From: Sorex araneus
Lineage: Eukaryota > Chordata > Mammalia > Eulipotyphla > Soricidae
Assembly (NCBI RefSeq): GCF_027595985.1
Contig: NC_073305.1
Coordinates: 110,628,035 to 110,692,034, forward strand
Direction: 5' to 3'
Length of the DNA: 64,000 bases
Positions within the stretch are counted from its first letter, which is position 1. Every line of letters begins with the position of its first letter. The notes below the pieces were generated by a model that saw only the letters and a program-made list of their open reading frames with translations, had not been told where the DNA came from and searched no databases. Positions 1,344-61,600 of this stretch are shown piece after piece. Made by a program: the position numbers and the translations under genes.

Positions 1344-4300
1344 GTATTGCTTTTGTTTTTATCTTAAGTATGTTTCTGATAAATATAAAGATAAAATTTG
1401 TAAAATATAATTTTACCATTTTAGACATTTTATATACTATATAAAATGTATATACTATATAGTATATATCCATATATACCTATTTTTCAGTATGTATCAA
1501 GTTAACTCTAAATATTTTGCTGAGGAAGATAATAATGAATTTGCTATGCTAAGTGGGTCATTGTTACATAAATTTCAAAAACTATTAGGTTGTTTTGAGA
1601 GTCTAAGTTTGCAGTATGTGCTTTGATCACTCAAAATTTCCAGTGTTCTAGGTTCTCATTGAGGCAGCAACTCCTAAATTATATCCCCCCCAAACTATAG
1701 AAACAAAAGAAAATTAAAATTTCACTTGACTTTTAAGAGCTTGATATAAAATGATATACTTTAGATTCACTAAAGAGCACTTAAACTTGGTCCAGAGGTA
1801 ATCACAGGCAGGTAAGGGTAGGACTTGAACTTTGATATCAGAGCATTTGAAGAAAATAATCATAAATTCAGAAGCAATATTCTGGATCACACGTGTACTT
1901 TGTCAGTCCTGTGTCAGATTAGTGATGAGAGTTTTTATAAGATACCTTTCCCCTACCAAAGGGAAAAACGTGATAAACTTTTGTTCAAAACTTGTATGCA
2001 GAATTGAAAAAGAGTTGACTTGGAAGTATTTTCCTGTCCAGAACATTTCAATCAAGGTCTTCATGACCAAGCATACATTTCACTGGCACAAAGGCTCTGA
2101 GTTCTCCTCTTTCCTTCCACAGGACAAGGAGGAGGACTTTAAGACAGTGATTTTGGAGGGATTGGAGATGGCCAAGCATCAGGTATGGGAGGTTTTTGAT
2201 GCTTGTGATATGGCAGCAAAAAATGCCACATCTGGACCAAATATGGAGACATACAAGGAGCTTGGAATTTCAACAAGTACAAGAGAAGTAAAGAGGGAGG
2301 AAGTCTTCCTGCAAGCATAGATTAGTGAAGTGAAAGGAGAAATTTTATGGAAATGTTTTAATTCTTTATTACTGAGGATGTGTAATTATGATTAAGAACA
2401 GAAGTATAAAACAATTGTACTGTTCTTGGTCAAGAACTAAAAATCCTCTCAAGTACTTCTTGACAGGAATGTAAACAAGAGGTTTTATCTTATTTTCTTG
2501 CATTTGGAAACTAGCTATGTAGGCTCAAGCATATTATTTGTTCTTCTTCAAGACAAACTTAGCTATGTATATACTTTCAAGTTTAGCCTAGGAAAATGAA
2601 GGTGGCTGGAGAGCCAGGGAATGGTAGCAATAGCAGTTAATGGCATAGAAAAAAAAATGGGACTCAGCACTAACATTAAAACCACTTTTAGTTATGAGAA
2701 AGGAAGATGGTTTTGTCTATCCAGTAATTTGGGCTGGAGGTTAAATGATTACTAAGAAGTCAACTAAGTGGTATTGGCTATTGTTTTCCTTTCCTCCTTT
2801 CTTTTGTCATAAAGATCTAGATCTTTCTATTTTAAGTTAAATCTATTTTCCTTTCCCTGGATTTTATTTTAAAATAAGCCCAACTCATGAGCACACATAA
2901 GAAAAATGAGCTAAATTTTTGCAGCTGCTTTCTCCATTAAAAAATTAATATTAAAATACTAAATAATGGAAGTTTCCTGGCACTCCTTGATCTTAGAGGG
3001 CAGACTCATTTATGATTGTGATAGATTCTATTTTTGCTTCCTTGACTCCCCCTTAAGTATTTTTATCTCCAGCTCATTGTTTTCATTATCCTATTTGTAT
3101 CTATCCAGGGTCAAACACCATTAGTTCCATTATAACCTTCACTAATTAATGTCTGTTACTCTAAAACTAGCCTCTTTTAACACATACACTTTTACTTGAG
3201 TTTGTATTTCGTTAGCAGTTTTCACCTCTCACTTTTTTATTGCAAGGTATAGTATTTTATTTGTCTTACCCCAGGATGTTGCAGTTCATTGTCAGAACCA
3301 AGATACACTTTTGACTCCAGGTCCAGGTCCACCTTTCCTCCCTATGTCGATTAGCACAGAAGCTTAGCAGTGTTGCTCTCCCAAGGATTCCCTTACTTTC
3401 TCCTTGCTTTGCATGAGAGTACCTATTTACTTTCAACCCTGATTATGGGGAGGACTTTGGGGCCACACCCAACGGCTACTCCTGGCTCTACATGCAGGAA
3501 TATACTCCTGGTGGTGCTCATCGACCGGGTGGAATACTGGGGATGCATGTAAGGCAAACACCCTATCCACTGTACTGTCATTCCAGTCCAACTACTACCA
3601 TCTTGTGACTCTGAAGTGTGATCTACTAATGGTACAGTGAACAAGACCTGTCCCTTCCTTAGCCTCATCCTAGTTAATCTGTCTCCTGGTCCTTGATAAC
3701 ATTAGCGGGAGTCTGGAAATCTGGGAGCTTTTTGAGTATATGGACTGGAGCGATAGCACAGCAGGTAGGGTGTTTGCCTTGCACGTGGCTGACCCGGGTT
3801 CAATTCCTTTGCCCCTCTCGGAAAGCCTGGCAAGCTTCCGAGAGTGTCCCGCCCACACGGCAGAGCATGGCAAGTTACCCGTGGCATATTCGATATGCCA
3901 AAAACAGTAACAACAAGTCTCACAATGGAGATGTTACTGGTGCCTGCTCGAGCAAATCAATGAACAACAGGACGACAGTGCTACAGTGAGTATATGCAAA
4001 GCACAACAAATTTTCGTATTATTTGACTCTCCCTATTTAAAACCAATCCTGGTCTGTTTGCTTGATTCTAGTTGGGAAAATACTGCTCCTGTGTTAGACC
4101 TGTCTGCGTACAATAATGGGCACTCAAGTGCCTCCTGAATTGGAGTTTTCATCCTGTCTAGGGTGAAAATGGGAAGATCATCATGTGAATTCATTTCTTA
4201 GCTCTGCTGATCTTTTACATTTTCTCCCATCCCACTCTGAACACAACTACTCCCTTTCTTGTCTTCCGCAGAAAAACCCGGAGGAAGACAACTCAGGGAG

Positions 4301-6800: not shown

Positions 6801-29077
<22,277 letters not shown>

Positions 29078-32008: not shown

Positions 32009-33382
32009 GTGAGTGCCCTGAGTTTTTTTCATTGTTGCTAGGCACCAGGTTTTTATTGGAAACATTAGAACATGAGCTCATATTTCCAAGAAACTGAATA
32101 TTCCAAATGCACGTTTACTTGTTTGGAACGCAAAAATGTAAAATGCAGCATGTGCTATCAATTCTTTAATAAGTATCTTGATTTTTTTGTAAATTTTCCA
32201 TCTTTTAACAAATAAACCATGTTTTTATTTAAATGTTATATGTTATAATGTTGCCCTATTTTCTTCATCTAATTTTTTACCAATTGAACCATATCTTACA
32301 TGTGCATTATCGTTTTTAGAAACCTAAATAGTGCCTTTAGCAGAACAGACCTTTAGGGAATAAACTTTTTCTTGGTGGTGCCATATTATAGGGAAAAAAA
32401 TCACTGTCACTATCACTCATCCCATTGCTCATCGATTTGCTCGAGCGGGCACCAGTAATGTCTCCATTGTGAGACTTGTTGTTACTGTTTTTGGCATATC
32501 CAATATACCACGGGTAGCTTGTATATATACATAAAAGAATAAAAATGCATAAAGGAATCGTGTAAGTAAAATATTTAGAATGCTCTGTGCCTGGCACATA
32601 CCTGACTTCATAGCAGTGACTATTACATTTATCAAAGCCATGTAGTTACCATTGATAAGCTAGCCTCTGTATGATTTTATGGTACTTCTGTTTTTCATTT
32701 TAAGGTGAAAATTGATTTGCAAGTGACCATGCCTCACAGCTACCCCTATGTAGCACTGCAGCTGTTTGGACGATCACCCGAGCTTGACAGACAACAGCAG
32801 CTACTTCTCAACAAAAGTCTCACATCTTACATAGGAACTTTTGATCCAGGTGAGCTGTGTGTGTGTGCAGCAATCCAGTGGTTGCAAGATAATAGCGCCT
32901 CCTATTTCCTGAACAAAAAGCTAGTTTATGAACCATCCACACAAGCGAAACCAGTCAAGAATACGTTTCTCCGAATGTGGATCTACAGTCACCATATATA
33001 TCAGCAGGACTTAAGGAAAAAGATCTTGGATATTGGGAAAAGGTTAGATGTGACTGGATTTTGCATGACAGGAAAGCCTGGTATAATCTGTGTGGAGGGC
33101 TTCAAAGATCACTGTGAGGAATTCTGGCATGCAATTAGATATCCCAATTGGAAACACATATCTTGTAAACATGCTGAAAGTATAGAAACGGAAGGAAATG
33201 GGGAAGATCTGCGCCTGTTCCATTCTTTTGAAGAATTACTCCTTGAAGCCCATGGGGACTATGGATTGAGAAATGACTATCACATGAATCTGGGCCAGTT
33301 CTTGGAATTTCTGAGAAAACACAAAAGTGAGCATGTTTTCCAGATATTATTTGGTATTGAAAGCAAAAGCTCAGATTCTTAG
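31808..33382 (+). CDS. RWDD2A: RWDD2A, RWD domain-containing protein 2A (complete)
   Basis: Coding exons 31808-32008 and 32705-33382 join in phase 0 to give 292 residues plus TAG, the length I recall for the human protein. The N-terminal part, about residues 10-130 ([16 protein letters not shown], the [13 protein letters not shown] strand and turn), is an RWD fold like those of GCN2 and E2 enzymes. The C-terminal part, about 155-285 ([41 protein letters not shown]), is the domain family formerly called DUF1115. There is no catalytic motif or transmembrane segment. Its function is poorly known. The start ATG has G at -3. The intron (gtgagt ... tttaag) holds a 5'-truncated class R SINE at 32400-32521. 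Confidence 0.96.
32400..32521 (-). repeat. tRNA-SINE class R, 5'-truncated
   Basis: Inverted tail cactgtcactatcact, then the body up to ccacgggtagcttg. The tRNA head is absent. Inside the RWDD2A intron. Confidence 0.88.
32705..33382 (+). CDS. RWDD2A: RWDD2A second coding exon with stop
   Basis: 678 nt, residues 68-292, from [18 protein letters not shown] to [10 protein letters not shown] and TAG. The first codon is GTG (Val), an internal residue and not a start. Confidence 0.96.
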
Positions 33383-35379: not shown

Positions 35380-35618
35380 ATAGCACTGTAGCACTGTTCT
35401 CCCATCGTTGATGGATTTGCCTGAGCGGACACCAGTAACGTCTCCATTGTGAGACTTGTTACTGTTTTTTGGCATATCGAATATGCCACGGGTAGCTTGC
35501 CAGGCTCTGCCGTGTGGCTGGGATAGTCTAGGTAGCTTGCTGGGCTCTCCGAGAGGGACAGAGGAATTGAACCTGGGTCAGCCGCGTGCAAGGCAAACAC
35601 CCTACCCACTGTGCTATC
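35380..35618 (-). repeat. tRNA-SINE class R
   Basis: Inverted tail tagcactgtagcactgt (the gtgctaca type), complete body, and the head to ctgtgctatca. Confidence 0.92.
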
Positions 35619-35624
35619 ACATAT

Positions 35625-37900
35625 ATTTATGTATATATATTTATGTATATATACTTATGTGATCATTCAAAACTCAGTCTTTTTTGTATCATAGACTGCT
35701 GGCCTTGTTTGCCCAGCCTGATGGGAGTGCATACTACCCTTCTATCTACTTTCTCCCACTTACCTCTCCCTATCATAATGCCCTTCAATTCTGAGTGAGT
35801 TTCTTTGTGAGTTTGGGATTTCGGAGTAAAAGTGATTGGGATCAAATCATCCTCTAGCATCCTTCTGGAAAAGTGGTTTTTGACCTCTTTCTGCTTAAAT
35901 CCATAGTGCCCCCTTCGTTTTTGGCACACTGAATGCTCAATTGCTTGATACCTCCTTTGAATTATCCAAAAGCTGACCTTTTTCTTGAATTGTTTATTGC
36001 TTGTAACTTGAGAACAATGACACTGTACATACCATATATTTTTAATAGTCATTTGGAAAATAACTGTTTCTGTGGACAAAACTATTCTAATTGATCTTGC
36101 TTCTTATTATCATAACCATTTTCATCTTTTCTGCAATTAATTGCTGCAAAGTGCTGTTACTATTCAGCTTTCATGAAGCCAAGAATTCTGATGACTCTTG
36201 AAATGAGAACACCATTTTAGCCAAAGCATCTCCCACAGATCTTCCCAGCTTACAGTGAAGAGTCCTGAAAACACTTTCGGGAATGCTACTGCATTGGCCT
36301 CACCAATATATTTCTCAAAGCTTTAGTGAAAGGAATGTCACAGTTAGGTCCTCTTGAGAAGTTTGAGGGATTGTAAGGATTTGGAGGGTCTGTCAGATCA
36401 GACTGTTATAACAATGCCACTCTGATACTCTTATTTCTGTAAATTTTTTATTCCTTTATATTATTTCAAGGGATGTTCACCTTTTCAATTTCATGTAATG
36501 TGGGCCCATAAGTCTTCATTTCAGTCAAATAACTGAACCAACAAGAGAACCAGCCACTTTCAGTTGCTCAAGACGCATACTGAATCCAAAAACCTCTGCC
36601 TGGTGTACCCCTATCAAGTCAGTTCTGCCCAAACCTCAATATTTCTCCTACCTCAGTTTATTTAGAGAATTGCATAGGTTTTCCCACACATTTTCCAATA
36701 AAAACAACCTGGAATTCTTTTGTTGGGAATCTTCTGGGACTGACTTTTTAAATGTGTTCACTAGCATTCTCTCACCATGCTAAAATCTGCTCTATGTGTA
36801 CTGATAATAAGTTATGTGGATGAAAAAGGAGATAAAGTGAGGTTTTTACAGGATCTTTAAGCAAGGCATTAGTAACCCTCTTTAAATGGGAAATGTTCCT
36901 GCTTGATTAGGAAAGCAGAATGTGTACAGTATAACCATTTAGCTAGGGTTGAGGGATTTCCTGGGGTATGATTCCTTATGTACTCAAAACTATGCTAGAG
37001 TTAGGGTTGCTTAAGTCATACAAATCTGCACACCAACATCTCATCCCAAATCAAGATCCCATAACTGTCTCCTAGTTGATACTTTCTCTTAGCCTTTACA
37101 TAAAGGCCTTACTTATGAGGATTTTGATGCAACTCCTTAATATAATTCGACAACCAGCAAATTTAGTATGACCTTAGTTTTTAACTATTTCAAACTTTTA
37201 GCGTGCAAGAAAAAAATTTTAAGCAAAAACATAAGCATTTCCCAGTTTTAAAACCATACTTTGTGCTGAAAATTCAAGCATTTAACCTAAATTCTCTATT
37301 AGTATAGCAAGTGACAACCCTATCAAGCAGTCCTGAAATCCTTTACCTATCATAGTTTTATAGCAGCAGACTTAAATTTTTTCTTAAGGCTTTATAAGCT
37401 AAAAGGTTACCATCAGTAGGTAATGCATTCCATCTGTTTTCTTATTTTGTAATCATGTTTCAGAGGTCCCAAAGATATTTTGCTACATTAATTTTTATGA
37501 ACTTTATATTTTTACTATTCAAATCTGGTTCACCTTTTTACATAGTGGAAGGTAAATTTATTACATTTTTCTCTATGTGGTAATTAATCCAGTTTTCCCA
37601 ATACTTTTACTAAACACTATTCTTTATCTAGTGATTTTTGAAACCCATGTATTTGGATGGCTGAGGATCTGTGAATTTCTATGTTATTGCATTGTTCAAT
37701 GTTATGAGAATATGTGGATTTGGGAAAGCTATATATAAAGTAACAGGCAGTACCTTGTTAATAATTTCATATGGGTTACATGTTGAGATTAACATTTCAG
37801 GTATTGTTTTAAATAAAATATACTATTAACATGACTTCCTCTTATTCTTTTTATGAGACTATTAGAAGTTACATATGAGGCTCAGATCTTTTGTTACTGG
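35625..37900. other. Intergenic, SINE-free 2.3 kb
   Basis: Apart from a TA-rich run at 35620-35660, no repeat or exon is recognised. Confidence 0.4.
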
Positions 37901-38764: not shown

Positions 38765-38970
38765 GCTGTCACTGTCACTGTCACTGTCACTGTTATCCCA
38801 TTGTTCATAGATTTGTTCAAGCAGGCACCAGTAACGTTTCTCATAGACTTATTGTTACTGTTTTTGGCATATCAAATACGCCACGGGTAGCTTGCCAGGC
38901 TCTGCCGTGCGGGTGTGATACTCTCGGTAGCTTGCTGGGCTCTCCGAGAGGGGTGAAGGAATCGAACATA
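38765..38970 (-). repeat. tRNA-SINE class R, head truncated at the B box
   Basis: Four to five units of the inverted tgacag tail, full body, and stops at ggaatcgaac. The A box is missing. Confidence 0.9.
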
Positions 38971-40613: not shown

Positions 40614-43600
40614 CTAGAAATAAAAGAATTTCAGTTATTTTAATGAGTAAATGAACTGGTGAGCATTTTTAATCAGCTTCAAAATTTTAATATATAAACT
40701 CTGATACTTTGCAATTTTGACAGTTTCTATTATAACAGCAGTATCCTACAAATGCCTAATATCTCCCTGAGTTTCCTGCTAAGCTGGATTCCAATTTAAG
40801 TGCTCCTTGCTAGAGACCAACACACTCTTGTCTCTAAGTCTTTGTGTCAAAATCATCATTCTAGTCCTCAGACAGGGGAATGCCAGTCAATTTGTCTTTT
40901 TACAATTGATTGCCATGATATTCCCACACTTCTCTAACCTTACCTGTCCCTATATAATTGGATTTATGCCTTAATTATTTTTTTAAGAAAACATGTTCTC
41001 ACAGTTTTTTTAGAAGAGTAGGTTATTATAATCTAGTAAGGCTGAGTGCTATATTATCATTGTTTTCTCCTCTCTGCATCAATATTTTAATATTTTAATG
41101 ACTATTACAAATGTGATATAGAAAACAACCAAAAATAAGGCAAAATTGGAAGATATGGATGATAGAAAACCCTAATAATTTAAATTATGTAACAAAAGTT
41201 ATAGCAAATTAGATTCTTCTTAATTTTTTCATTATTCTATAAGAATTAAAAGTATTCATTAGGACCAGAGAGAAAGGATAGTGCACTTGTCTTGCACATA
41301 GCCAAATCCAGTTCAATCACTGACACCATATATGATCTTCTGAGCACTGGGCCAGGAATAAACTGAGCAATGCTGAGTATGCCACCCAAACTAAATTAAA
41401 CTAAAATAAAATGACACTCCTAAATTCTGCTGAGGTACTGTGGTTAATTCTTTAGCATATTCTTTTTTTTTTTTTTTGGCTCTTTGGATCACACCCGGCG
41501 ATGCTCAGGGGTTACTCCTGGCTCTGCACTCAGGAATTACTCCTGGTGGTGCTGGGGGACCATATGGGATGCCAGGGATCAAACCCAGGTTGGCTGTGTT
41601 CAAGGCAAAAGCCCTACCCACTGTACTATAGCTCTGGCCCCTAGCTTCTTCTTAATACAGATACACATTTCAAGAAAGTGGAGCTGTAGTACCTGAAAAG
41701 ACATACATACAGCAATAGAAGCAAAGAAAAATAATGAGGTTTGAACAAAAGTGGTTTTACCTTTAATGCGATTTTCAGAGAAACATCTCGAATGGTGTTC
41801 AAAGGAGGATAAAGCCGGCCCTCTTGCAAATGTTTATCTGATACTTGTTGAGCTATGACCTTAAAAATAAAAGATGCAAATGTTTATACTCACCATCATA
41901 CAATGTGGTAATTATAAAGATAATCAGGTGAGTGGTCACATAAGACATCCTAAACAGAAGCAAACCAGTGATCATTTAATTTCATTCCCAACTTTATCAA
42001 AGGAAAAACTGAGCCCAGAGAAGTTTGGTAATTAGTTGGGATCACATAATGAGTGAAAAAGATAAGAAACGAATCTGGGTTTCCTTTTAGAGCAGTTGCT
42101 TTTCAATCTGTATCATGAAAGTGCACAGCTTTCCTATCTGACACACTAGAGGAACACGAAGAAGAGAAAGTGGGCAAAGGAGGATGACAGAAATGATGTA
42201 AAAGTACCACTGAGAGAAGAGAAAAGTTATCCAAGATTGGCTATGGCATTACTCCAAGCTCTCATAACCTTGAACTAAAGGTTTAAGAGGATGAGAAACC
42301 TATTTTATTGCAAATAGCATTTGAATTTGACAGAAAATCCAGATTATGTGAATCATATAACTAGCTTCAGAGTCTGCTATTCCCAAACCAGTCCCTATTT
42401 CTAAATCAAACAGTATAAATTTCAATAAATTTCCAAGTGTGCTAAGAGGCTTCCCTCTTATGTATGGTAGATCTTATGTCCCACTGTTTCTATCACACAC
42501 ACATACAGTAATATAGAGGGTAGGGACAAATGTTTTAAAATTTTAGCAAATTAAAAAGGACAAACTATTAAATGATTATGACATAGGTGATGGCTACTCA
42601 GACAAACAGTAGTCTCCAAAGTCATCAAATTGTATAATTACATATTTTTATGTGTCAATCATACCTGGAATTTTTTTAAATGAGACAATCTGCGTTCATC
42701 AAAGAGATGTTTTCCCTTTTCTCTACCCTTCCTTCCAGTTTCCAACACCTCCAAAAAAGAATGCCTTCCTTGAAAGAAGCAAGGAAGGGTTCTCGGAGCC
42801 TACCTACACTCATTCTCCTCAGAGAGATACCGGTGTGAGAAAATATGCCTATTCCTATCTGTTAGTGAAGGCCTTTATGCTGCACAGAAAGAAGAAATAC
42901 ATTTTCTCTGGAGTTGGTTAGAAATTCTACCTCCTGTAACAAATACTGTACAAAGCCAGGTGGGCTCAACAAGGGCAGATTTAGATGTGCTATCAAAGCC
43001 CAACAGACAGAACAGAGTTAAAGGCAGGATGAAATTTTCCTTGTAATGCAAAAATATTAAGAAATAGTCTTTGTAATTGCTGCTAACCTGTGAAGTTTTT
43101 AGTTCCAAAAGACACTGCTTAATGAAAGTTTCTGCTCTATGCTCTAGCATTGTCTGGGCGTTACTATGACTTTACAACAGATAATGATAAGGCAACACAA
43201 TTATTTAACACATATAACTCAAGAGAACAATACAACCAGAAATAAGATAAAATGCTGAAATGTAGCCACATCTAAAGAGAAAGATCAAGCTGAGCAATAT
43301 GACTAATAAAAGGATCCAAAGATGAGGTGTGACTTTGGCATAAACATGTAGAATGACTCACAAACCTTTGCAAGCAGGACAATCAGAAATTACACATGTG
43401 TATGGTGTGTTTGAAAATTCTGGGATAAGGAAACATGAAATGAATGTGAAGAGTCTAAGTTTCAGTGCCTACTTAGAAAGCGGGTATTACTTGTTGAAGT
43501 GTAAGTATTTCTCATAGGGAGAAGGAAGCTGAGAGAGATGATTTTTCAATCTTGATTAAGGGAAAATTATTTCTGATGCTATAGCACAGCGGTAGGGCGT

Positions 43601-46600
43601 TCGCCTTTCATGAGGCCGACCTGTGTTGGATTCCTCCGCCCCTCTCAGAGAGCCCGGCAAGCTACCGAGAGTATCGCGCCCGCCACAGCAGAGCCTGGCA
43701 AGCTACCCATGGCATATTGGATATGCCAAAAACAGTAATAATAAGTCTCACAATGAGAGACGTTACTGGTGCCTGCTCGAACAAATCTATGAGCAACGGG
43801 ATGACAGTGACAGTGACAGTGAAGCATCTATTAGGTAACTGAAGGTAAGAGAAAAGATAAGAACAGAGACCCAGAGTTGATCACTACTAGTATGAAAATA
43901 ATGAAAGCATCTTCGAAGTGATAAAAATGAAGAAATACAAGGTAAGAGCCTGGGGATGTAGCATATGCCTCAAACGTATATGGGATCTTGGATTGAATCC
44001 TGACACTTAAAAAAACAGGGCCCGTAAGAGGGGTTAGATAAAGGTTCTTAGTTAAAAGGGATATGAAACTGAGACAAAGAAAACCAACAGACATTCCACC
44101 ACCGCTGCCATTTAAGTTAATCTGTCGGCCTGCCTCAGAGACTCATGATTAACTCTCAAATGAGATCAACTAGCCACATAAAATTATTGTAATTTCTCAG
44201 CAGTACCAGCTAAGACCTCCAGGGGGGGTCTCGGGGTCGGGACGGGGGTCAGGGGATAAGGGACATGGCTGTACCTTTCCAATAGCTGCTACCATACCTA
44301 CAGCCAGATTCCACCGCCTCAAGACTGAGCTTCACAGAGATGCCAAACTGATACAGTGGGGTTTTTTGGCTGAAAACTCCAGATTGTCTCAGACTAGTGG
44401 TGGGCAACTTCCCCTCATCCCCACATCCAGAAGCCCTGGCAACCACATCCACATGCACCACTGCTCAGGTAAATATTCTAGATTTTCTGGAGCTCACAGC
44501 CATGAATGGCAAACCCCACAATACTAACTTTTCCCTAGGCGCACACCAAATTGCATGATAATGTAACATAGAACCCAAACTAAGCTCAATTAACAAAAAA
44601 CATCAACATAGAAGGTCAACTAGCAACAATAGCTTAGCAAACCCTCAAACAAGGACTTAATGTCCCTATGGTGACATATAACAATTTTCACAAATTTGCT
44701 TTTACTGAAATATTTTTTGATAATTCCACTGGCCATCTAGTGGCGACAAGTATTACAAAATAAATTATTTTGCAACTGCTATGGGGGCAGACTGGAACAA
44801 TGTCTAGGAAAATGGGACAATGGTGGAAGGATGGTCACAGAGGTGGGATTAAGGTTGGAATATCAAATGACTGTAACAAATGCATCATAAACAACTTTGT
44901 AAACCATGGTGTTTAAGTCAAGTGGGGGCAAGAGGAGAAAGATCATTTAGTATCAAAAGCAGGAATGGATAGAAACCTAAGAAAAATCCATTAGAAGAGC
45001 CAAAGCAGTTAAAGAGATCACCAGCTATATAAGTAACACTAGTGATAGCACCATATTATTTTCTTCAAGGTTTCTTTGTAGTGGATTTCACTTTTTCTGT
45101 ATAGAAAGGTTTTTGATTTTTAGAAAGGTTTTTGGGTTTTTTTCCCCCATGAATTTGTCACTAGAGGGTGCTGGAGCACAATCCTATTTCTTCTGATATG
45201 TCTACTATAAAATACAATCACATTTTTCTTGATGCACAAACAACTTTAAACATAATTAGACATTTTACTTATTGTGTGCAATATGACTTTTTGAGTTAAG
45301 GAAACACAGAAATATCAGTTACATATTTTTTTGCCTCCTTCACCCCCCCCCCTCTTTTATTTCCAATCTTCCCTCCACCCCTCTCCACATGAAGTCAGTC
45401 ATCAGGCTTTTAAAACAGTGACTAAAAGGAAATAACAGAACTTCAAACAACTATTCTCACAGAATGATGTTAGGCACTGAAGGGATGGGATTATATTCCT
45501 TCAGATAACATCAGAGATCGGAATCTAGTCAAACATGAATCAAGCAGATTCTGATTGTCCAAAGTTCATGATTTTATGACTATCTACCAATTACGGCATC
45601 ATCCCCCACCCCCTCCACTCCCCAGGCTCAGGAACGCAGGCTTCAGGTGCCTCAGGTACTAGGAGTAACAAAGTCCTTGGTCTCTGACCTAAGAACTGCG
45701 AGTCTTCTACCAGCTGTGAAATTCCGACACCTGTTAACTTGATAAGGTGAAATTCCTGATCCCCCACAGTTCTAACAGCAGCTTAACAGCACTTCCCTTC
45801 TAGGTCTGCCATGAGTTGTTGTGAGAATCCTCCCGAGGGTCCAACCTAGAGTACACTACTGACTTCTTTTAACTGATTTACTTTGACAATAGTACTATTA
45901 CTTTGTACCTTCTACACTACGCTCACCAGCTACTTGATCATCTCAACGTCTATACTTACCTTTTTAATGACTTTGTTAACACCCAGTTCCTTATTTTAAA
46001 ATCCTTCCTGCTTAAAGTACTAGAGTGGTTTCTGTTTGCTGCACTAAGACCTGGCATGACAAATCAGACTTTCATTTCAAGTCTTTAAAACACTGGTATT
46101 AGGAAGGTTCTCAGTGGAGAAATGCCTGCCACTTCAGCATAATTAGGGAACAGTATTTTTAATTAAAGATTTTTTAAAAGGTCTTTTTAAATGAAGAAAT
46201 CAATTTTTTTCTATTGACAACTGAAAAACCCTTTATTAGTGATTCAGTTTGAACTTCTTTATAATGATTTACTTATTCTTCACTAAGAAAGAATTTTTCT
46301 CCTTCTGACTTGACACCAATACAAAGAGCTGACATGCTAGATAAACGAAACAACAAACAACCAATTCTGAGCCCATTTAGCATTTCATGGCTTTCAAGGA
46401 TTTTACAATACCTCTGCAGTAGTGAGAAAAATCTTGTCAGGGATATGTCTTAATCCACATGCCACAACACCAAGAGCAACTCCAGGAAACACATAGGAAT
46501 TGTTGCCTTGGCCAGGATACAGGGTCTGTCCATTCGGAAGAGTGACTGGATCAAAAGGACTGCCGCTGGCAAAAATTGCACGCCCCTACAGTAACACAGA

Positions 46601-49600
46601 CACAGAAATAATGTCAGAAAAGGATATTTAAAAACAAAATTAACAGAACAACACCATAAAGGACTAGGTATTTAGAAAGAAGTCTAGGGGGCTGGAGTGA
46701 TAGCACAGCGGGTAGGGTGTTTGCCTTGCTCGTGACCAACCCGGGTTCAATTCCCAGTATCTCATATGGTCCCCTGAGCACCGCCAGGAGTAACTCCTGA
46801 GTGCTTGAGCCAGGAGTAACCCCTGTGCATCACCGGGTGTGACGCCAATAAAGCAAAAAAAAAAAAAAAAAAGCCTAATTTTTTCATTAAGTCCTTTCCA
46901 AGTCTGGACAAGCTTTCAAGATGTTGACAAGTTCTGGAGGGAGGGATTATTATTGTGCTTTTATTCTTCTACTCCAAGGAGAAGTGTGTTCGGCACAAGA
47001 AAGACCCCAAATCACCTATCTTATCTCTGCAATGACTCACCACATTGTCCTATCAACACTTCTATATCGGTTTCAAATGACAAATTTCTAGACATGGGAT
47101 AATTAAAATATCTGAAAAAATGACAGGTTGTTACAATTTAAGAGGCCAATAAACTTCAACATAATCACTGAGACAAATTTTACATATTTCCATGTTATAA
47201 ATAACTATATGAGAAAACAATATATAGAAAACAAAATTAATAAATGTAATTTGATATTACATGATATTAGCAAATGAAAGATTCTTGTTAATAACTACCA
47301 AAAACTGTATCCAGCTGGGAATACAGCTAAGCGATAGGGCACATGAGGCCCTGTGCTGAATCCCTGGCCCGAAACAAAACCCAAACCAAACACAACAAAC
47401 ATGCACTATATCACTGTCTTCCTGTTGCTCATCTATTTGCTCGAGCGGGCCTCAGTAACGTCTCCATTGTGAGACTTGTTGTTACTGTTTTTGGCATATC
47501 AACTACGCCATGGATAGCTTGCCAGGCTCTACCGTGCAGGCGAGATACTCTCGGTAGCTTGCCGGGCTCTCCGAGAGGGGTTGAGGAATCAAACCCAGGT
47601 TGGCCGAATGCAAGACAAATGCACTACTGGCTGCACTATGGCTCCAGCCCAACAAACACGCAATAGTCAATATTTTTTCTGGAGGGGTTCACACCTGGTG
47701 ATGCACAGGGGTTATTCCTGGCTCTGCATTCAGGAATTACTCCTGGCGGTGCTCAGGGGACCATATGGGAATCGAACCTGGGTTGGCCGCGTGCAAGGCA
47801 AATGCCCTCCCCGCTGCACTATTGCTCCAGCCCCCAGTCTTAATATCTTTATATTTTTTTTATGAGAACATGCATGCTTTATAAAGCTTCTTAGCTGTAG
47901 CAGTTTATACTGTTAATCAAAAGGGAAGCATTTATCTTCTCTGAGAGTGAGGGTAGAAAGTAGTTGAGAGCATTCAGCATCTTAAAACAGGAATAGTAAA
48001 CTTCAACCTCAAAAGCATATGTAACCTAGGAAATATATTTAAAAAGTCTAAAGCAGCTTTTCGCAATAGGAGGCCATTTGGCTCCACTGCCCATCTCCGG
48101 GATAGTCTAAGGGGGTCTCGGCCTGAGATTAGGAAACCATCCTGTAAGACAGGGAGACCACAGGAAGAAAACAAGATAGGGAGGGGAGCCGTGGCTGGGA
48201 AAATACTGAGCAAACTGGTTTAAAGCACCAAGTCACAGTTTATGATGAGAGAACGGGTTAAAATTCTCATCCCTTTTATAGCTGAAGGTTAAATTCTTTG
48301 TGATGTTAATAATATTAACTTAACATCATTTTTTTACTGATTTATTATTTGGGCAGTTTACACCAGCAGAGTTCAGGGGCTACTTCCAGCTTAGTTCAGG
48401 GGGTTTGCTCCTAGGGGTTGCTCGGCAGATCATGTGGTGCTGGGATAAACCTGGATCTCTAGAATACTTGGGGTTCAGTCCTGGCAATCTGGGCAGGTGG
48501 GGGATTGCGGATGGGATGGGGGCGTCCTATATGCTCTCCCAGAGGATCAAATCAGGGGTGTTACACGCAAGGCAAGTTCCTTAGCTGTTACTCTATTGCT
48601 CCAGCCTCTTAATGTTCTTTTTAAACTAATGCCATAATAAACCTCTTATATAAACATTTTTATAATATGATGCAATCATCTTCGGTATATAAAATTAGAT
48701 GGAAAGAAAACAGAAATTTTTATCAATGTGTATAAGAACCTGAAATATAATTCTGTACAAATATAAGTTCTGTACAAAATTGTATTTTTTAGGTAAGTCT
48801 GATGCCTTACCTCTGTTTAATATATATGTATTTTTCAACAAGCAACTTTTTAATGTAAACTATTTGATATACATGTTAGTTGTTATATATGCATAATATT
48901 TAAAAATTATATTTGAGAAGAGATGTACAGCATTATACAAGTTCATTTTTATCTCCCTCTATTCCCTAATGTCCAAACTTTCTCCCTCTTCTACAATCAT
49001 ATTTTAAGTAGAAATGGCATTAAATAGATGGGTTGGTGAAATAATCTTATATATGTAGATGTGAATATAAGAAGAAAATGAACAAATTTTTTGCATAATT
49101 ATAATTTCATACAGTTCAATGAGCCTTTGTTGTTTTAGGGCTCAGGGTTATTTTTTATTGGGAGATGCACTTCCAAGCAGGGCAATGAGCACTGGGCCAC
49201 AGAGCCTTTCCCATCCAACTATATCTGGTAGCTCAATGCAAGGGTGAAGGAATGCAATGGGTCATCCTGTGGTACTCAGGAGGCTTACAGGACACTCCTG
49301 CTGTATTTGGGAGGCCACACATTGCAGAGGATCAAGCAGGGGTCCAACTCTTGCAACGAACAAACTTTAAACCCCTCTCCTGTCCTAAAAGCAGTGGGGA
49401 CTCCAAACCACTGACAGAATACTTCTTCTACAGTTCTTTGATTGGCTGATTATTTGGGGGTGGAGGGGCCTGGAGGCAAAGGCCCCCAAGCAGTGCTCAG
49501 GGAAGTCAAGGGTCACTCTGAGTGATGCTCAACCAACTACGCTGGCAGTTCAGTGCTAGGGATTGAGGATGCTGGGTCGCTCAGGTCCTCTAATGCCAAG

Positions 49601-52600: not shown

Positions 52601-55600
52601 GCTGATGTTATATACACACAAATTTATAGATAAAGTTTCAGAACTTCTCTTGAGATAATTTGAGATCCAAATTAAGTCTGATCATATTAGACATCTTATT
52701 GCATCCTGCAGCATGCAAAGTGAAGCTGCAGTGCCAAGGGCTCAGAGGAATGTAAGGAAATAAAAAATATGGTCGCTGTCTCCCAGGCCTGTCTAGTCCT
52801 ATATTATTCAGCCTCAGCTCTACTTACATATCGAGCTGGACAATTCCAAGTTGTGCAGATGTCTCCGTGTGCCAAAGGATCAAGGGAGGCATCCATACAC
52901 TCCGCTCACTGAGTGTCAGTGTGTCCAATGCCTCCCCTGTCCCTACTACCCACCATTAGCATCACAACCCAAAACATCCTCAGATATTGTCACGTGTTTC
53001 TTTGGCATTAAAATCACTGCTTGAGAAATCTCCTAGAGCAGTCAAGTCTGGGAAGGTGCTGAATATGCCAGGTTAAGAGGAGCCACATAGTTCAGCACAA
53101 TTAAGAAAAAAATATAAATCTAGGGGTCTACAAGGTACTGTTGTTTCAGTGACTATGTAATTGTATTAGTGAATTCCAATGGTTAGTATTCCAAAAGTCA
53201 AAATTACACTGAAAAAGTCAGTAGCAGGCACAATAACCGGGCCAAAATAAATTGAGGTAACAGTTATGGGAGGCTGGAAGAAAAAGTTTACCTATAAGGG
53301 CAGTTGGTTTTAATTCTTTAACAACGTCTTCTAGGTTCTTCATTTCCTTGTGTTCGTGGGCAAATTCCTCTTTCTCATGTGTTAAGGAAGCCCGTCCCTA
53401 AGTAAAGCGAAAAATGAAGAAATCATAAGTATGCCAAACATTTTAGCAAAAAAAAAATACTCAGAATATTATATATGATCTGCGTTTAGATTTTTTGCAT
53501 ATTACATGTTAGAGTTATTCTTGAAGTTTCTTCCCCAGTTGTCAGATCATTCATTCTTTTTTGCAATTATGTCCCAGATAATATTCTAGATCAACGGTTT
53601 TCAACATTTTACATACCTGCAGGCTGTCACTCACTAGTCTGATGATTAGTGGTTGAAAAAGATTGTTTTAGGCAATGAAAATTTAACAATGAACAAAACT
53701 GATTATAGGGGCCAAAACGATAGTACAATAGGTAGGATGCTTGCCTGGCATGTGATCAACCCAGGTTCGACCCTGGGTACCCTCTAAATGGCCCTCCAAG
53801 TACTGCCAGGAGCGATGCCTGAGTGCAGAGTCAGGAATAAACTGATTACTTTTGGATGTGCACCTCACCACCCAAATTAAACTGACTTTAATTTAGATGA
53901 AGTGATAAATTCAACTGGTGCCAATTCATCACTCTATTACTGTGTCAATGATCTCTGCAATGTAATTTTACAGTTTCTTTCACCAAAAATAGAGTATACT
54001 TTCTAACCCTTGTCTTTGGATATGGCCATGTGACTTTCTTTGGTCAATAAAACGTAGACTGAAATTGGAGCATGTTCATTCCAAGATTAGGCCACCGGAG
54101 GAAATGAATTTTCACTTGGTCCCTTGTGCCTTTGCCATTGACTCAGAAGACATAACCTAGCTGGCTACTGACCCACAGATGATGAAAACCTTGTGAAGCT
54201 GACCTTGACCCAACCTGATGCTTAGAGTCATCCAGCCAATCACTCACCCAGTTACCTAGTGAGCTTTCTCACTGACGAAGATACATGAGAAAAAATTCTG
54301 TTGTATGTATGCCACTGACATTGTATTGCCTTTGATAACAGTAACAACTGACTACTGCTGTCAACATAGCAGTTGATTTTAAGTTGAAAAATATAGAAGT
54401 TAATTTTAATTTTTATTATTCATCTTTCTACTCGTTTATTTCTATTCATTGTTGTTCTGGCAATAAGAGGTTCTTTTTTCCTGTAATGATTTAATGAAAG
54501 GCATACTTTTGAATCCATTTGCTCATATCCACATTACTGTTCAGTAATTTAGCAAAAGAAAATAATTATACATTATTAAAAAGAAGAGTGAAATTCTAAC
54601 TATGAACACAAATAAGAATTTGGAATCATTTGACATTTATAGTGTAGCACTGTTGTCCCATTATCCATTGATTTGCTCGAGCGGGCACCAGTAACATCTC
54701 CATTGTGAGACGTTGTTACTGTTTTCGGCATATCGAATACACCATGGGTACTTTGCCAGACTCTGCCATGATATTTACACTAAATATCTAAATTACTTGT
54801 TTATAGAACCACTATAAGTTAAATTTCATAATTATTTTAATGTTCATCATTATTCATTTTCATTCTCACAGCACTGCAATATTTATTTAGGACATTTACT
54901 AAATAAAGCTGATGGTTTGAAAAAGCACTTTTTCTAGCAATCATAATTTCAGCTCTCAGCGTTCTGAATACAACATAGTTTTGGCCTGTTACTCTACCCC
55001 AGATATGTATATAACCAACTGCAGATATAAAGACAAAAAAAGTAGATTAATGTCTGTATGAGTCCCTATGTGGCAAATATTTCAGAACCCCAAAATGCTT
55101 TTAGAATAATTTCTTTTAATCTTGAGGCTACAGGTCCCAACTATGTTTCCTCGGCTCTCTTATAGCTAGGGTTTTGTTTTATTATATCTTTTAATTAAGA
55201 TGGAATTTCTGGGGGCTGGAGTGAAAGTACAGTGGGTAGGGCATTTGTCTTGCACAGGGCTGACCTGGAGGTTCGATTCCCAGCATCCCATATGGTACCC
55301 CGAGAACCACCAGGAGTAATTCCTGAGTGCAAAGCCAGGTATGACCTGTGCATTGCCGGGTATGACCCAAAAAGCAAAAAACAAAAATAGGAATTTCTGT
55401 ACAATCCAGCAATCCAACATATTTTGCATCTATCACAAGGCCCCTAAAACATTATTTCAAAAAGATATCTGTGCTCCTATATTTACTGCAGTACTAATCA
55501 CAATGACCAAGCTCTGTGGTGAGAGGGGACAGCCAAACAGATGTCCAGGAGTAGAGGACTAGATAAAGCACTTGAATATAGGGCTAGAGGGAGTATACAG

Positions 55601-58600
55601 AGGTAAAGCATTTGCCTTGCATGGGAAAAATCCTGGTTAAATCCCCAGCACCACATATGATCACCCAAGAACCATCAGGAATGATCCTTAGAACAGAGCC
55701 AGGAGTAAGCAAGTAAGCCCTGAACACAACTGAATGTGAAAGAAAGAGAGAAAATACAGAAAAAGGAAAGGGAAGTGAAAAGAAAAGGGAAAGGGAAAGG
55801 GAGAAGGGGGATAGAAAGAGGAGGGAATTGAAGGGGAGGGGACAGAAGGGAAGGGAAAAGAAAAAAGAGGGCATATATGCAAATAGAATACTACTCAGTT
55901 TTAAGAAAAGATGAAATCATGCAATTTGTCACTATGTGGATGGAATTAGAGAATATATGTTGTGTGAAATCAGTCAGAAGATAAGAGATAGATACCAATA
56001 ATCTTATACTGAAGCATAATAAGGGAATAAGAAATGGCCAAAGGTAACTGTCTACATAATAGAATTGATCAAAGAGGAGGGCAGGAAAAGGCAGATGGAA
56101 GGGGAACACTGGTGAAGAGAAGTGGACACTCTGGTGGTGGTTATAGGGTTAGAACATTGTACACATGATACTAACATGAACATAACAGTCATGTAAATCA
56201 TGATGTCTCAATTAAAAAAAAAACCAACTAACTTCCACATACCACCATATAATTTTGACCCACTTCACCCACTTGACCCATCCACCATCCCCTTCTCCTC
56301 TTTGAGTTCTCCACGGTCTGGGATTGTTTGGGATTTTTGTTTCTTTCCTTTGTTTAAATTTCATATGTCAATAAACCATATTACTCATGTTCATATGATA
56401 GATTTGTTTAGCACAATCACCTCAAGTTTTTCCATGTAGTTGTAAATGGTTAAATTTTGTCTTTTAAAAAAATGTATATATGTGGGGCGGGGCAAAACCA
56501 AATAAAAAAATTTAAAAAATGAGTATATGTACATATATTACATATTTATGTGTATACATATGTACACATATATAATTGAATAGTATCATGTAGTATAGAC
56601 CATATCACATCTTCTTTTCCATTCATCTGTTCCTAGGCAATTAGGTTATATCCGTAACTTGGCCATAGTAAATAATGCTGCAATTGTAACAGAAGGCACA
56701 GATTTTTTTCTAATCACTTGTATCACTTGTCATCCTGTTGATCTTTGATTTGCTTGAGTGGGAACCAGTAACATCTCCATTCATCCCTGTCTCGTGCTAG
56801 TGTAGTCCAGTCGTATCTGCTCTATCTAGGAACATGAAGAGCCTCAAACCGTTCGTTCAGGGTTTATGTAGTTGATAAATTTCACTTTACTTTATCTTTA
56901 CTTTGATTACATTCAATATTTCAACAAAAAACTCACTATTATTGTTTGGAGTTTCCCGCCCCAAAGTTGGACCTGCTGGAAAAGAAGCATTCGATAATCT
57001 GTTTTCCATTGCTGAGAATGAAGAGATATGAGGTCATGTGGCCACAATAGCGTCCACAACCCTGATTCTTGATCGTCGACGGAGATCGGAACTCCGGATT
57101 CCTTCTCTCACTTGAGTGAAATGTGAAATTCCAAGCATAGCTCTTTCGATTCCTCTTTGGGATACCTGAATAGTGTACTCATCCTGTTTTTGTAGGACCC
57201 AGGTCTTTGAGGCGTATGTTAGTGCAGGAAGAGGTGGAGTCGAGGGGCTGGAGTGATAGCACAGCGGGTGGGGCGTTTGCCTTACATGCGGCCAACCCGG
57301 GTTCGATTCCCAGCATCCCATATGGTCCTCTGAGCACCGCCAGGGGTGATTCCTGAGTGCAGAGCCAGGAGTAACCCCTGTGCATTGCCAGGTGTGACCC
57401 AAAAAGAAAAAAAAAAGAGGTGGAGTCGAAAAGATGTGCCTGGGCTGGAAGTTCTTCGTCATCTTCTTAACCACGTCTTCAACGCTCTTGAAGGCGTTCC
57501 ACGCTGCTCTCTTCCTCCTGCGCAGTTCTGACGCCAAGTCATTCCTCATGTTGAGTTCTTGACCCAGGTACACATAGCTGCTGCATTCAGAGATGTTTGT
57601 TCCATTGAGAGCAAATGGAGCATCAGGGACTAGTTTGTTTTTCATGAGCATCATTTTGTTGAGACTCAGCTGCAGTCTGACCTTTCCACACTCATGGTCG
57701 AAGTCGGCCAGCATTTGTGCCGCTTGGCTAATGTTTGACGTTATGAGAACGATGTCATCAGCAAAGCAAGGTGGTGTAGTTGTCGACCATCTATCTTCAC
57801 TCCCATTCCTTCCCATTCCAGTCATTGCATGATGTTCTCGAGGGTGGCACTGAAGAGTTTTGGTGAAATGGTATCACCCTGCCGAACCCCTCTCTTTACG
57901 TCAATGATCGCTTCCTTGTAGAATGGTGAGATCCTGGTGGTCTTGCAAAACTTCAATGAGTTTGGTCACAGTGTGGATATGGTAAATAGTGCTGAATCCT
58001 TTTTGGAACCCGGCTGGCTCACATGGTTGTCCTTCATCTAGTGTTCTGCCTATTCTATTCAGAATGACTCGAGTGAGCAACTTGCAGATGATGGACAATA
58101 GGAAAATTGGGTGATAGTTGCCGTTATCGTGGATGTCTCCCTTCTTGTACAACAGAAAGGTCCTGCTGGTTTTCCATTGGGACAGAACCTTGCATACGGA
58201 CAGGTAGCAAGTGAAGAGCCGAGCCAGTGTATTGATGAGTACTGGCAACAGATTCTTCAGGTGTTCGGGTCTGACCTTGTCTAGACCAGGTGCTGTACGC
58301 ACAAAATGGCATGTTGGATTTCAGATTTCTAATAAGGATGCTTATATTTTTCAGAGAAATACACAAAAGGAATAACTAAATCATAGGAGATTTATGTACT
58401 CAATATTTTGAAGAATCCCATTTTATACTAGACTTAGCTGATCTTACTTTATTATATTATACTTTCTAACATGTTTTTTCTTTTAATAATATGAAAATAT
58501 TATAATTAATTTTTGCCTGGGGTTTATTTTGACAGAGAAAGCAGAAACCCAAATGGGACATATGGGATTACTGAAAATACTGTAAGATAAAACCTTTTTA

Positions 58601-61600
58601 GTAAATTTATTAAAGTTGAGGCAGTTATAAAGCTTATGGCATCAACATACAAAATTATTCCATCCACCACCACCAAAGTGACAAACACCCTCGACCATTG
58701 TCCCTATATCTCCTCTGTGATCCTCTTGGCTTCCCGCCTCTCACCCACTACTGGAAACTGAATTTATATTCTAACGCCACGTGTTTGTCCTTTTCTGGTA
58801 CTGTTAATGAGAGAAAACATATTGAAGATTTTTAAAATCATTAACAGACTAACAATAAAAAGTAAAATGTGCCATTGCTTTTATTTATTTTTAATTGCTT
58901 GGCCTCACCAAACAATAAGTAAGATTCCACACATTTTATGGCAAAAGAGCATGGCCCAGAGCATGAAATACAATTAGTAACTCACTGTGAAGGCTTATTG
59001 AAAGCATGTGAGTCTGAGAAAAATTCCAGTTCTTGACACCATTATACAACTGACCAACAACATGTCAATAAAAATATATTCAAATATTTTCCTTGTATAT
59101 TGTTTAAATAAATTTGCATGTGATTTCTATAAAATACCAATTATTCATTTTCATTAAGTTACCAAGCCTCCCACATGAAACAAGAAATTTACAGAATAGA
59201 ACAAAAGTTTTAGAAATGATTTTACTTGCAACTAAAATAACCATATTTAACCTAGTACAACATGAATGGTACTTCTACTAAAAAAAGCATGCAAATAGGG
59301 ACTGAAGCAATAGTACAACGGAAAGGGCATTTGCCTTGCATGCGGCCGACTCAGGTTCAATTCCCCAGCATCCCATATGGTTCCCCAAGCACCACCAGGA
59401 GTAATTCCTGAGTGCAGAGCCAGGAGTAACTCCTGAGCATCGCTGGGTCTGACCCGAAAAGAAAAAAAAAGCATGCAAATAAGAGGATCTATTTATGCTA
59501 AATGCAAAAAAATACAAAATTTTTAAAGGTTGAATAATCTCAAAGCAAGGGAGATGTAATCTCCATTGTGTTAATGCAATGATTCAAAATATTTTCCAGA
59601 TTGCAGTGTCCCAGGTTCTCCAAAACAGCAAATTTCTTTTAGTGTAATGTATTTTTAATTTTTAATTTGTTTTGTTTTGTTTGGGTGCAGGGGAGGTGAT
59701 GAGTCACACCAGGTTGTGCTGCCAGGGTTGGCAAGTGCCCTGTCTCCTCCATGGAGGGGCACTGGGGTTTGAACTCAAGGGCCAGAGTCTCCTGGACAAG
59801 CACTTTAAGCCACTGAGCCCTGTTCCAGAATTCCTTGAGAAGTAGTCCTTTGTTTTATCATTTGGGGTAACCCAGTAGTACTTGGGTGTTACTCTTGCCT
59901 TGGTACTTGGAGGTTACTTCCAGTGGTGCTCTGGGGGCCATGCAGCGCAGGAATTGAACCTTAGGCTCTCACCTGTAAAGCACGATCAGTCCTCTGAACT
60001 ATCTCCACAGCCTGACAGTTTTTAAGGGTGCAATAGCTAGTGTTTTATCTTTAACAGTATAAGGCTGCAACACTTGAAAACTAAAATAATTCAAGTGGTA
60101 AACACATATATTTTGGAAGCTGCCTGCTCATATTTCAGATGAACTCTGTAACAAAACCATGTAACTTTCTTCTTTAAAGTATGGATGTTATTAGATGGTG
60201 CAATCATCCATTTTTAACGGCTACCTTTGTATATCTTGGTAAATATACCAATAGTTTCCTGCCCGCATGGAAGAACCTGGCAAACTCCCCATGGTGTATT
60301 CATATGCCAAAACCAGTAACAATGCTGGGTCTCACTCCCCTGACCCTGAAAGACCCTTAATGCGACATCCTTGGGAAGGATGAGTAAAGAGAGGCTGCTA
60401 AAATCTCAGGCCTAGGACAAATGGAGACATTACTGAGACCATTCAGGAAATTCGACAATCAACAGGATAATGATGATGATGATGATGACCTTTGTGGATA
60501 TATCTATATCTATATCTATATATATTTTTTGCAAGGTAGGGGTAATTCCAGGCACTGCACAGAAGGTCTAGGGGCTTCATCAGATCTTGAGCCAACCAGG
60601 CTGGAGGATCAGTGCCGGGGCCAAGGATGCTGTGCTTCTCGGGATCCCTGCCAGGAATCCCTGAGCCACCCCTAGAGGCAGAACTAGGGGCCTCTAGGGC
60701 CATACATGGTGGTGCTTGGTGGGCCTCCCGGGCTGCATCCAATGGTCCTTGAGGACTGAGAGTGTGTTGAGGAGAGCAATCTTTGACAACAGCATTCAGA
60801 ATGGCATACTAATTTTTATACTGGTTAAAAAGGACAGATTCTTACCTTAACAATTAATCCTTTTGAGTCAACCAACCAAATCTTTTTCAAGGCTTTCTCC
60901 TTTGATAACCCTTCCTTTTCCATGGCCATAACAAGTAGGTGCGCAATCCCGAGGGCAGCCTGAGGAAGGCAAAATAAGAACAAAATTAAAAAAAAAAATT
61001 ATCCCACAAGATAGCTTTTTAAAGAGTTACATCTCACCCTAGTTTTGTCTTTTTTAAAATTTAACTAAGGAAAAACAAAATAGGCTTATTAATCTGAAGT
61101 TGTATTCATGAACTATACTGGGAACAAAATATTTTTGTCACATTTTGGTTAAGCTGACAATTATTTCCTCTTCTATACCAAAGCCTCCTGTGAAAAATGA
61201 GTCACTGTCACTGTCACTGTCATCCCGTTGCTTATCGATTTGTTCAAGTGGGCACCAGTAACCTCTCTCATTGAGAGACTTATTGTTACTGTTTTTGGCA
61301 ATATTCAATTTGTCACTATTTAAATAATTTCCATTTTGCAAACAGAACCTCAACTCTCAAATTTGTAAATAAAGTGAGTGCCGTTTTCACGAGTCTAGTA
61401 GAACATTAGTATCGTATGAAAGAGATACCTCTCCAGCTCCTTGGAACAGAATAGTTTGATCAGACAGTTTGTTCTTGGTTATCCGGAGAGCTGCAAGGAT
61501 GCCTGCGACTGCCACAGACGCTGTTCCTGAAAAAGTAATAAATAACCTTGAGTAACCCTCCAAGTCTGGCAAATTCTAATGCTCAAATACTTATTCACAT

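Follow-up and report, generated by a model that had tools for sequence, protein, structure and literature searches.

A composite SINE family of Sorex araneus, built from both ends of an RTE LINE and probably copied by it

SINEs that carry the tail of an RTE-clade LINE are known from several hosts. In ruminants, Bov-tA, with a tRNA-Glu head, and Bov-A2, which starts with the 5' end of BovB, are both paired with the LINE whose Bov-B tail they bear, and RTE-clade tails are also described for RTESINE1, MAR4, RTE1-N1_LA, the Afro SINEs, SINE2-1_EC and the Sauria SINE, among which MAR4, RTESINE1 and RTE1-N1_LA start with an RTE 5' end (PMC3747384). The AviRTE SINEs of birds consist of a promoter head and a tail in two pieces, one taken from the 5' part and one from the 3' part of an RTE, and AviRTE itself was described as horizontally transferred (PMC4844689). 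For Sorex araneus, the abundant RTE element RTE1_Sar has been reported, together with a horizontal transfer that links the shrew lineage with strongylid nematodes; the direction of transfer was not confirmed by that paper's own age analysis, and the word "SINE" is absent from its main text (PMC6542046). The 2013 review puts the number of SINEs with a partner LINE at 58, counts Bov-tA, Bov-A2, MAR4, RTESINE1 and RTE1-N1_LA among those of mammals, and nowhere uses the word "shrew" (PMC3747384). Within the open-licence literature we found no paper on an RTE-tailed shrew SINE, although Repbase, Dfam or SINEBase may list the family.

We analysed a stretch of 64,000 nucleotides of the Sorex araneus genome (NC_073305.1, positions 110,628,035 to 110,692,034), which is called the window throughout, and which contains twelve examined copies of a SINE termed class R together with an RTE LINE (Table 1). 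The RTE is a broken copy, which is 5'-truncated near 58330, frameshifted and split by a SOR-type SINE. The duplication AGAGGTGGAGTCGA, read by eye, flanks this SINE (57244-57415) on both sides and takes in the last ~14 bases of the adjoining RTE piece. The unnamed repeat that interrupts the RTE at 56867-57059 was matched at 38 further places in the genome at 91-96%.

Table 1. Features of the class R and RTE families in the window (window positions).
Position	Strand	Feature	Evidence or remark
3742..3989	+	class R, full length: head 3742-3807, leader ~3808-3916, tail 3924-3980, repeat to ~3989	likely TSD GAGTATAT
9629..9801	+	class R copy without tail	
16552..16797	-	class R, full length	likely 12-nt TSD, one mismatch
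23033..23276	+	class R, full length	
24181..24428	+	class R, full length	
32401..32521	-	class R, 5'-truncated	
35382..35625	-	class R, near full length	
38768..38968	-	class R, 5'-truncated, ACAGTG repeats	
43570..43820	+	class R, extra base at tail start, ACAGTG repeats	
47404..47650	-	class R, full length	likely 12-nt TSD, one mismatch
54641..54771	-	class R, 5'-truncated	
56719..56781	-	RTE LINE 3' coding end matching the class R SINE tail	nhmmer, translation, 29-copy consensus
56867..57059	-	fragment of another abundant young repeat, replacing part of the RTE coding region	alignment
57060..57243	-	RTE coding piece upstream of the 3' end	translation; 40 scored genome matches
57244..57415	+	SOR-type (class A) SINE inserted in the RTE	ARAGORN tRNA-Val 57249-57321; Soricidae primer match at 57305
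57416..58330	-	RTE reverse-transcriptase region, frameshifted and 5'-truncated	translation; RVT_1 E 3.3e-5, below cut-off
60224..60490	+	headless non-autonomous RTE derivative, longer leader and 3' coding end, (ATG)n tail	alignment with relatives
61202..61315	-	class R, 5'-truncated, ACAGTG repeats	

The 3' end of the window RTE matches the class R tail. With a single class R SINE as the seed, an nhmmer search of the window recovered the RTE at 56781-56719 on the minus strand with E = 1e-7, and the profile made from all first-round hits matched the same stretch with E = 7e-14. Furthermore, the window RTE aligned with the class R consensus of 12 copies at a local score of 41, as compared with a mean of 10.3 and a maximum of 16 in 1000 dinucleotide shuffles. 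This stretch falls inside positions 56715-56790, where the preliminary description had placed the resemblance, and its example of a SINE tail at 3921-3980 is also correct. It had expected more than 80% identity between the SINE and RTE consensus sequences; the class R tail consensus is identical to the RTE family consensus at 50 of 54 positions, and at 58 of 62 with one gap (~62 columns) when the first terminal repeat is counted. The terminal repeat unit, expected to be the same, agrees only loosely, with ACAAGTGAT in the LINE versus ACAGTG or ACAGTGCT in most of the SINEs. The tail was further attributed to every class R SINE, and it is present in 11 of the 12 window copies examined, whereas the copy at 9629-9801 breaks off within the first tail bases. 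The 17-residue peptide quoted for the tail is a fair average, although none of the 11 tailed copies encodes it exactly. Such a shared 3' end is most naturally read as that of a tail-sharing SINE/LINE pair.

We then compared the tail with relatives of the LINE in the same genome. The RTE loci, 30 loci from the best 40 scored of 2419 candidates, were chosen by likeness to the window copy, and the 29 other RTE copies used for the 3' consensus are those that best matched a coding block of 167 nt from that copy, with 23 of them covering the tail well. In this consensus the ORF crosses the shared segment without interruption and reaches its stop, a TGA, within the terminal repeat ACAAGTGATACAAGTGAT, after which only the repeat follows, leaving a very short simple-repeat 3' UTR of the ACAAGTGAT type. 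Since the RTE ORF stops only inside the terminal repeat, the class R tail is the last ~18 codons of the RTE LINE. The claim that the SINE tail represents the last codons of the partner's ORF thus holds, because the consensus ORF reads through and the tail matches it. The same description had presented the tail as being "not a 3' UTR", as if this were special; RTE elements are described as having very short 3' UTRs that consist of simple repeats (PMC2887409). With the RTE 3' UTR being so extremely short, a SINE that borrows ~60 nt of such an RTE end borrows codons. In the whole genome, 947 matches to the RTE-type 3' end were found with at most one mismatch, as against 0 for the control, and the four of these that we read were three RTEs and one derivative.

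The coding region upstream supports a reverse transcriptase. A peptide of the RTE copy L057 matched Pfam RVT_1 with 50.8 bits, above the cut-off, while the window piece gave 24.1 bits, below it. Two peptides from the region upstream of the reverse transcriptase yielded no Pfam match, and we take this region, by eye, to be a putative AP-like endonuclease. The placement of the LINE in the RTE clade, which we assume here, comes from the earlier description and from anatomy, and its C-terminal residues presumably resemble those of hookworm RTE proteins. When viral contigs were scanned for the RTE reverse transcriptase, seven pattern matches came up, none of which was confirmed.

The rest of class R also resembles known parts. 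Of the 30 RTE loci, 20 were searched upstream for the leader, and two of these, L039 and L057, reach the region before the main ORF. The SINE body aligned with these single leader copies at scores of 84 and 80 (maximum 16 in 200 mononucleotide shuffles), and with the RTE 5' leader consensus, made from L039, L057 and ten more leader copies, it is identical at 106 of 111 positions without a gap. The same body showed no match to the window RTE fragment, with scores of 9 and 10 and shuffle means of 9.4 and 10.1. The class R head is identical to the head of the class A (SOR-type) SINE at 62 of 66 positions, the similarity stops where the leader starts, and ARAGORN predicts a tRNA in the head consensus of class R. 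The alignments thereby show class R as a composite of a 66-nt SOR-type tRNA-derived head, about 111 nt of RTE 5' leader, a short junction, about 54 nt of the RTE coding end and a terminal repeat. Class A itself has an A-rich tail, and its consensus lacks RTE parts. We assume the name SOR for class A, the primer match being its sole support. The published Soricidae SINE primer (PMC8608897) matched class A in the window twice exactly and seven times with at most two mismatches, with 0 matches expected. Rfam gave no match in the window at gathering thresholds.

Some class R copies form a subfamily marked by one additional base where the tail begins, comprising 43570-43820, 38768-38968 and 61202-61315 in the window and L011, L016 and L022 elsewhere. 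In some of its copies GTCTCTC..GAGAGAC replaces GTCTC..GAGAC, and several have ACAGTG instead of ACAGTGCT repeats. These bases belong to a possible hairpin at the class R body/tail junction (CAGTAAC..GTCTC / GAGAC-GTTACTG, for example at 3907-3945), in which leader-derived bases pair with tail-derived ones. The four class R copies that we folded gave z values of -1.5 to -2.4, and their minimum free energy folds contain the inner 5-bp stem in all four and the outer stem in two, while the window RTE end showed no unusual folding (z +1.4). Across 25 copies, 94.2% of the cells in the hairpin pair, a value matched by 106 of 500 shuffles, and covariation gave no support.

Leader and 3' end are also joined in elements other than class R. 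The sequence examined by BLAST, mostly in loci fetched for other reasons, holds 36 leader-tail pairs, of which 32 are distinct after the removal of four repeats in overlapping loci. The class R junction accounts for 24 of these composites (10 in the window), a "long" type for seven and another junction, in L071, for one. The "long" derivatives (L010, L018, L034, L044, L049, L054, L057 and the window element at 60224-60490) have ~90 more leader bases than class R and join the 3' end at ...AAAATCTCAGG...GACGAATGGAGAC; no tRNA head was seen in them among the aligned relatives, and their tails are GAT repeats in some and ACAGTGATACAGTGA in others. The window element is identical to the leader consensus at 131 of 165 positions with two gaps. 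The third junction, at L071:1316-1576, is a single copy with a ACAGTGATACAGTGA tail. The different junctions of class R, the "long" type and L071 indicate that internal-deletion derivatives arose more than once.

To place the source of these tails, we scored 67 of the 75 tail matches, the remainder being duplicates or too short. By simple patterns, the 34 RTE tails comprise 21 EDQ, 10 IDEQ and three unscored ones, and the EDQ share is biased upward since the loci were picked by likeness to the EDQ-type window copy. The 33 derivative tails, including L071, comprise 20 IDEQ and 13 unscored ones, and no EDQ. The SINE tails thus appear to match a minority RTE subfamily, IDEQ, among the RTE tails scored, and since the derivatives lack EDQ while the window RTE is of this type, the window copy would be a cousin of the source and not the source itself. 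The terminal repeats set LINE and derivatives apart: CAAGTG was found in 31 of the 34 RTE tails, including 9 of the 10 IDEQ ones, and CAGTGA or CAGTGCT in 27 of the 33 derivative tails. The extra A of the LINE repeat (GACAAGTGA) puts the TGA in frame, whereas GACAGTGA does not, and most derivatives have GACAGTG, which removes the in-frame stop. Coding constraint may hold the extra A in the LINE, and the SINE would lose it freely.

On these findings we consider it very probable that class R is a composite family made from both RTE ends and a SOR-type head, and that it has been copied in trans by the RTE. The composite would have been born when the two RTE ends were brought together, either through an internal deletion or through template jumping, much as in the headless derivatives, and would have captured the SOR-type head. 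The tRNA-derived head would provide a Pol III promoter to drive SINE transcription, and the RTE protein would recognise the shared 3' end with its repeat and prime reverse transcription at the nicked target, copying the SINE in trans. Several signs support a spread by the RTE machinery, namely the lack of an A-rich tail, plausible target site duplications in six of 15 full-length copies, the agreement of the derivative tails with the IDEQ subfamily, the 5' truncations (five of the 12 class R window copies start beyond seed position 25) and the similar divergence of the two families, which is 0.068 for 12 SINE copies and 0.059 for 25 RTE copies, the latter being best matches and biased low. The consistent difference between the LINE and SINE terminal repeats counts against this explanation, and so do the nine of 15 full-length copies without an accepted duplication and the lack of covariation in the junction hairpin. 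In the earlier interpretation, which saw in the tail a sign that the LINE had mobilised the SINE, the origin of the tail stands and the mobilisation is probably right, but it was incomplete, as the SINE also carries the RTE 5' leader.

The composite could instead have been spread mainly by L1, as the A-tailed SOR-type SINEs presumably are, with the RTE tail kept as a relic. This is improbable. The SOR-type head that class R shares with those SINEs would fit such a route, and so would the copies that lack a target site duplication: candidates under the rule of our script occur, as a raw count, in 8 of 15 full-length copies, and we regard six as plausible (3742, 16797, 47650, L039, L036 and L032), leaving nine of the 15 without an accepted duplication. 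The class R tails, however, end in ACAGTG-type repeats and not in an A-rich stretch, and the tail is present in 11 of the 12 window copies. Three of the six plausible duplications (16797, L039 and L032) also have three Ts 9 to 12 bases upstream, a sample too small for a test, and a T-stretch upstream of the target site is among the features reported for RTE-clade pairs (PMC13295347). A shared sequence does not by itself tell the donor from the recipient, so that the LINE might also have taken its 3' end from the SINE. We consider this very improbable, since parts of both RTE ends are found in the SINE, since in the 29-copy RTE consensus a long frame runs unbroken to its C-terminus through the shared segment, and since there are deletion derivatives made of RTE sequence only, with other junctions.

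Least probable of all is that the SINE tail is translated or kept open as coding sequence, even though six of the 11 tailed window copies can be read in the RTE frame without interruption as far as the terminal repeat. A +1 insertion at the tail start is common to three of the 11, a stop lies inside the tail in two others, and the substitutions number 24, 15 and 21 over codon positions 1, 2 and 3. We reject selection on the SINE codons on this spread together with the insertions and stops, and the statement of the preliminary description that the tail is kept in codon phase fails on the insertions and the substitutions. The RTE copies, 23 for each region, likewise decay without phase bias, with 49/37/47 substitutions in the tail and 122/134/114 upstream. 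The codon phase of the SINE tail is inherited, not maintained. The best explanation of a SINE that carries codons without a coding role is that, in this RTE, one set of nucleotides would serve both as 3' signal and as C-terminal codons.

The partner LINE may be RTE1_Sar, given the host group and the fit of the clade. The odds seem to us about even that RTE1_Sar, having moved horizontally, gave rise within the shrew to at least two non-autonomous families that combine both of its ends, one of them with a SOR-type head, and that the difference in stop and repeat separates coding constraint from RNA signal; the identity of the LINE, the direction of its transfer and the constraint would all have to hold. 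If the LINE is RTE1_Sar, a reported transfer across phyla offers a reference point for the birth of the SINE, and the speed with which a new LINE gains SINE parasites becomes a datable question. Independently of the name of the LINE, the class R/RTE pair is one in which the last codons of the LINE and the putative recognition signal coincide in the same nucleotides, and the differences between SINE and LINE at the stop codon and the terminal repeat are worth following. The derivatives with different junctions, furthermore, offer a route to asking how SINEs of composite structure originate.

Neither shared tails nor SINEs made of two RTE parts are a new design, and the mechanism is not new. By analogy, class R appears to have the design of Bov-tA and the AviRTE SINEs, with a tRNA head and both RTE ends. 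To judge from the descriptions available, Bov-tA and Bov-A2 parallel class R and the headless "long" element, respectively, although they belong to another host and another LINE (PMC3747384), and the other RTE-tailed SINEs, such as RTESINE1 and MAR4, are alike by description in the same way, again in other hosts and with other LINEs (PMC3747384). As described, the 3' part of the AviRTE SINEs is a ~40-bp 3' UTR (PMC4844689), whereas that of class R is a coding end with its terminal repeat. The differing terminal repeats of class R and its RTE also have a described counterpart, in that different microsatellites terminate the Sauria SINE and the Bov-B element paired with it (PMC13295347).
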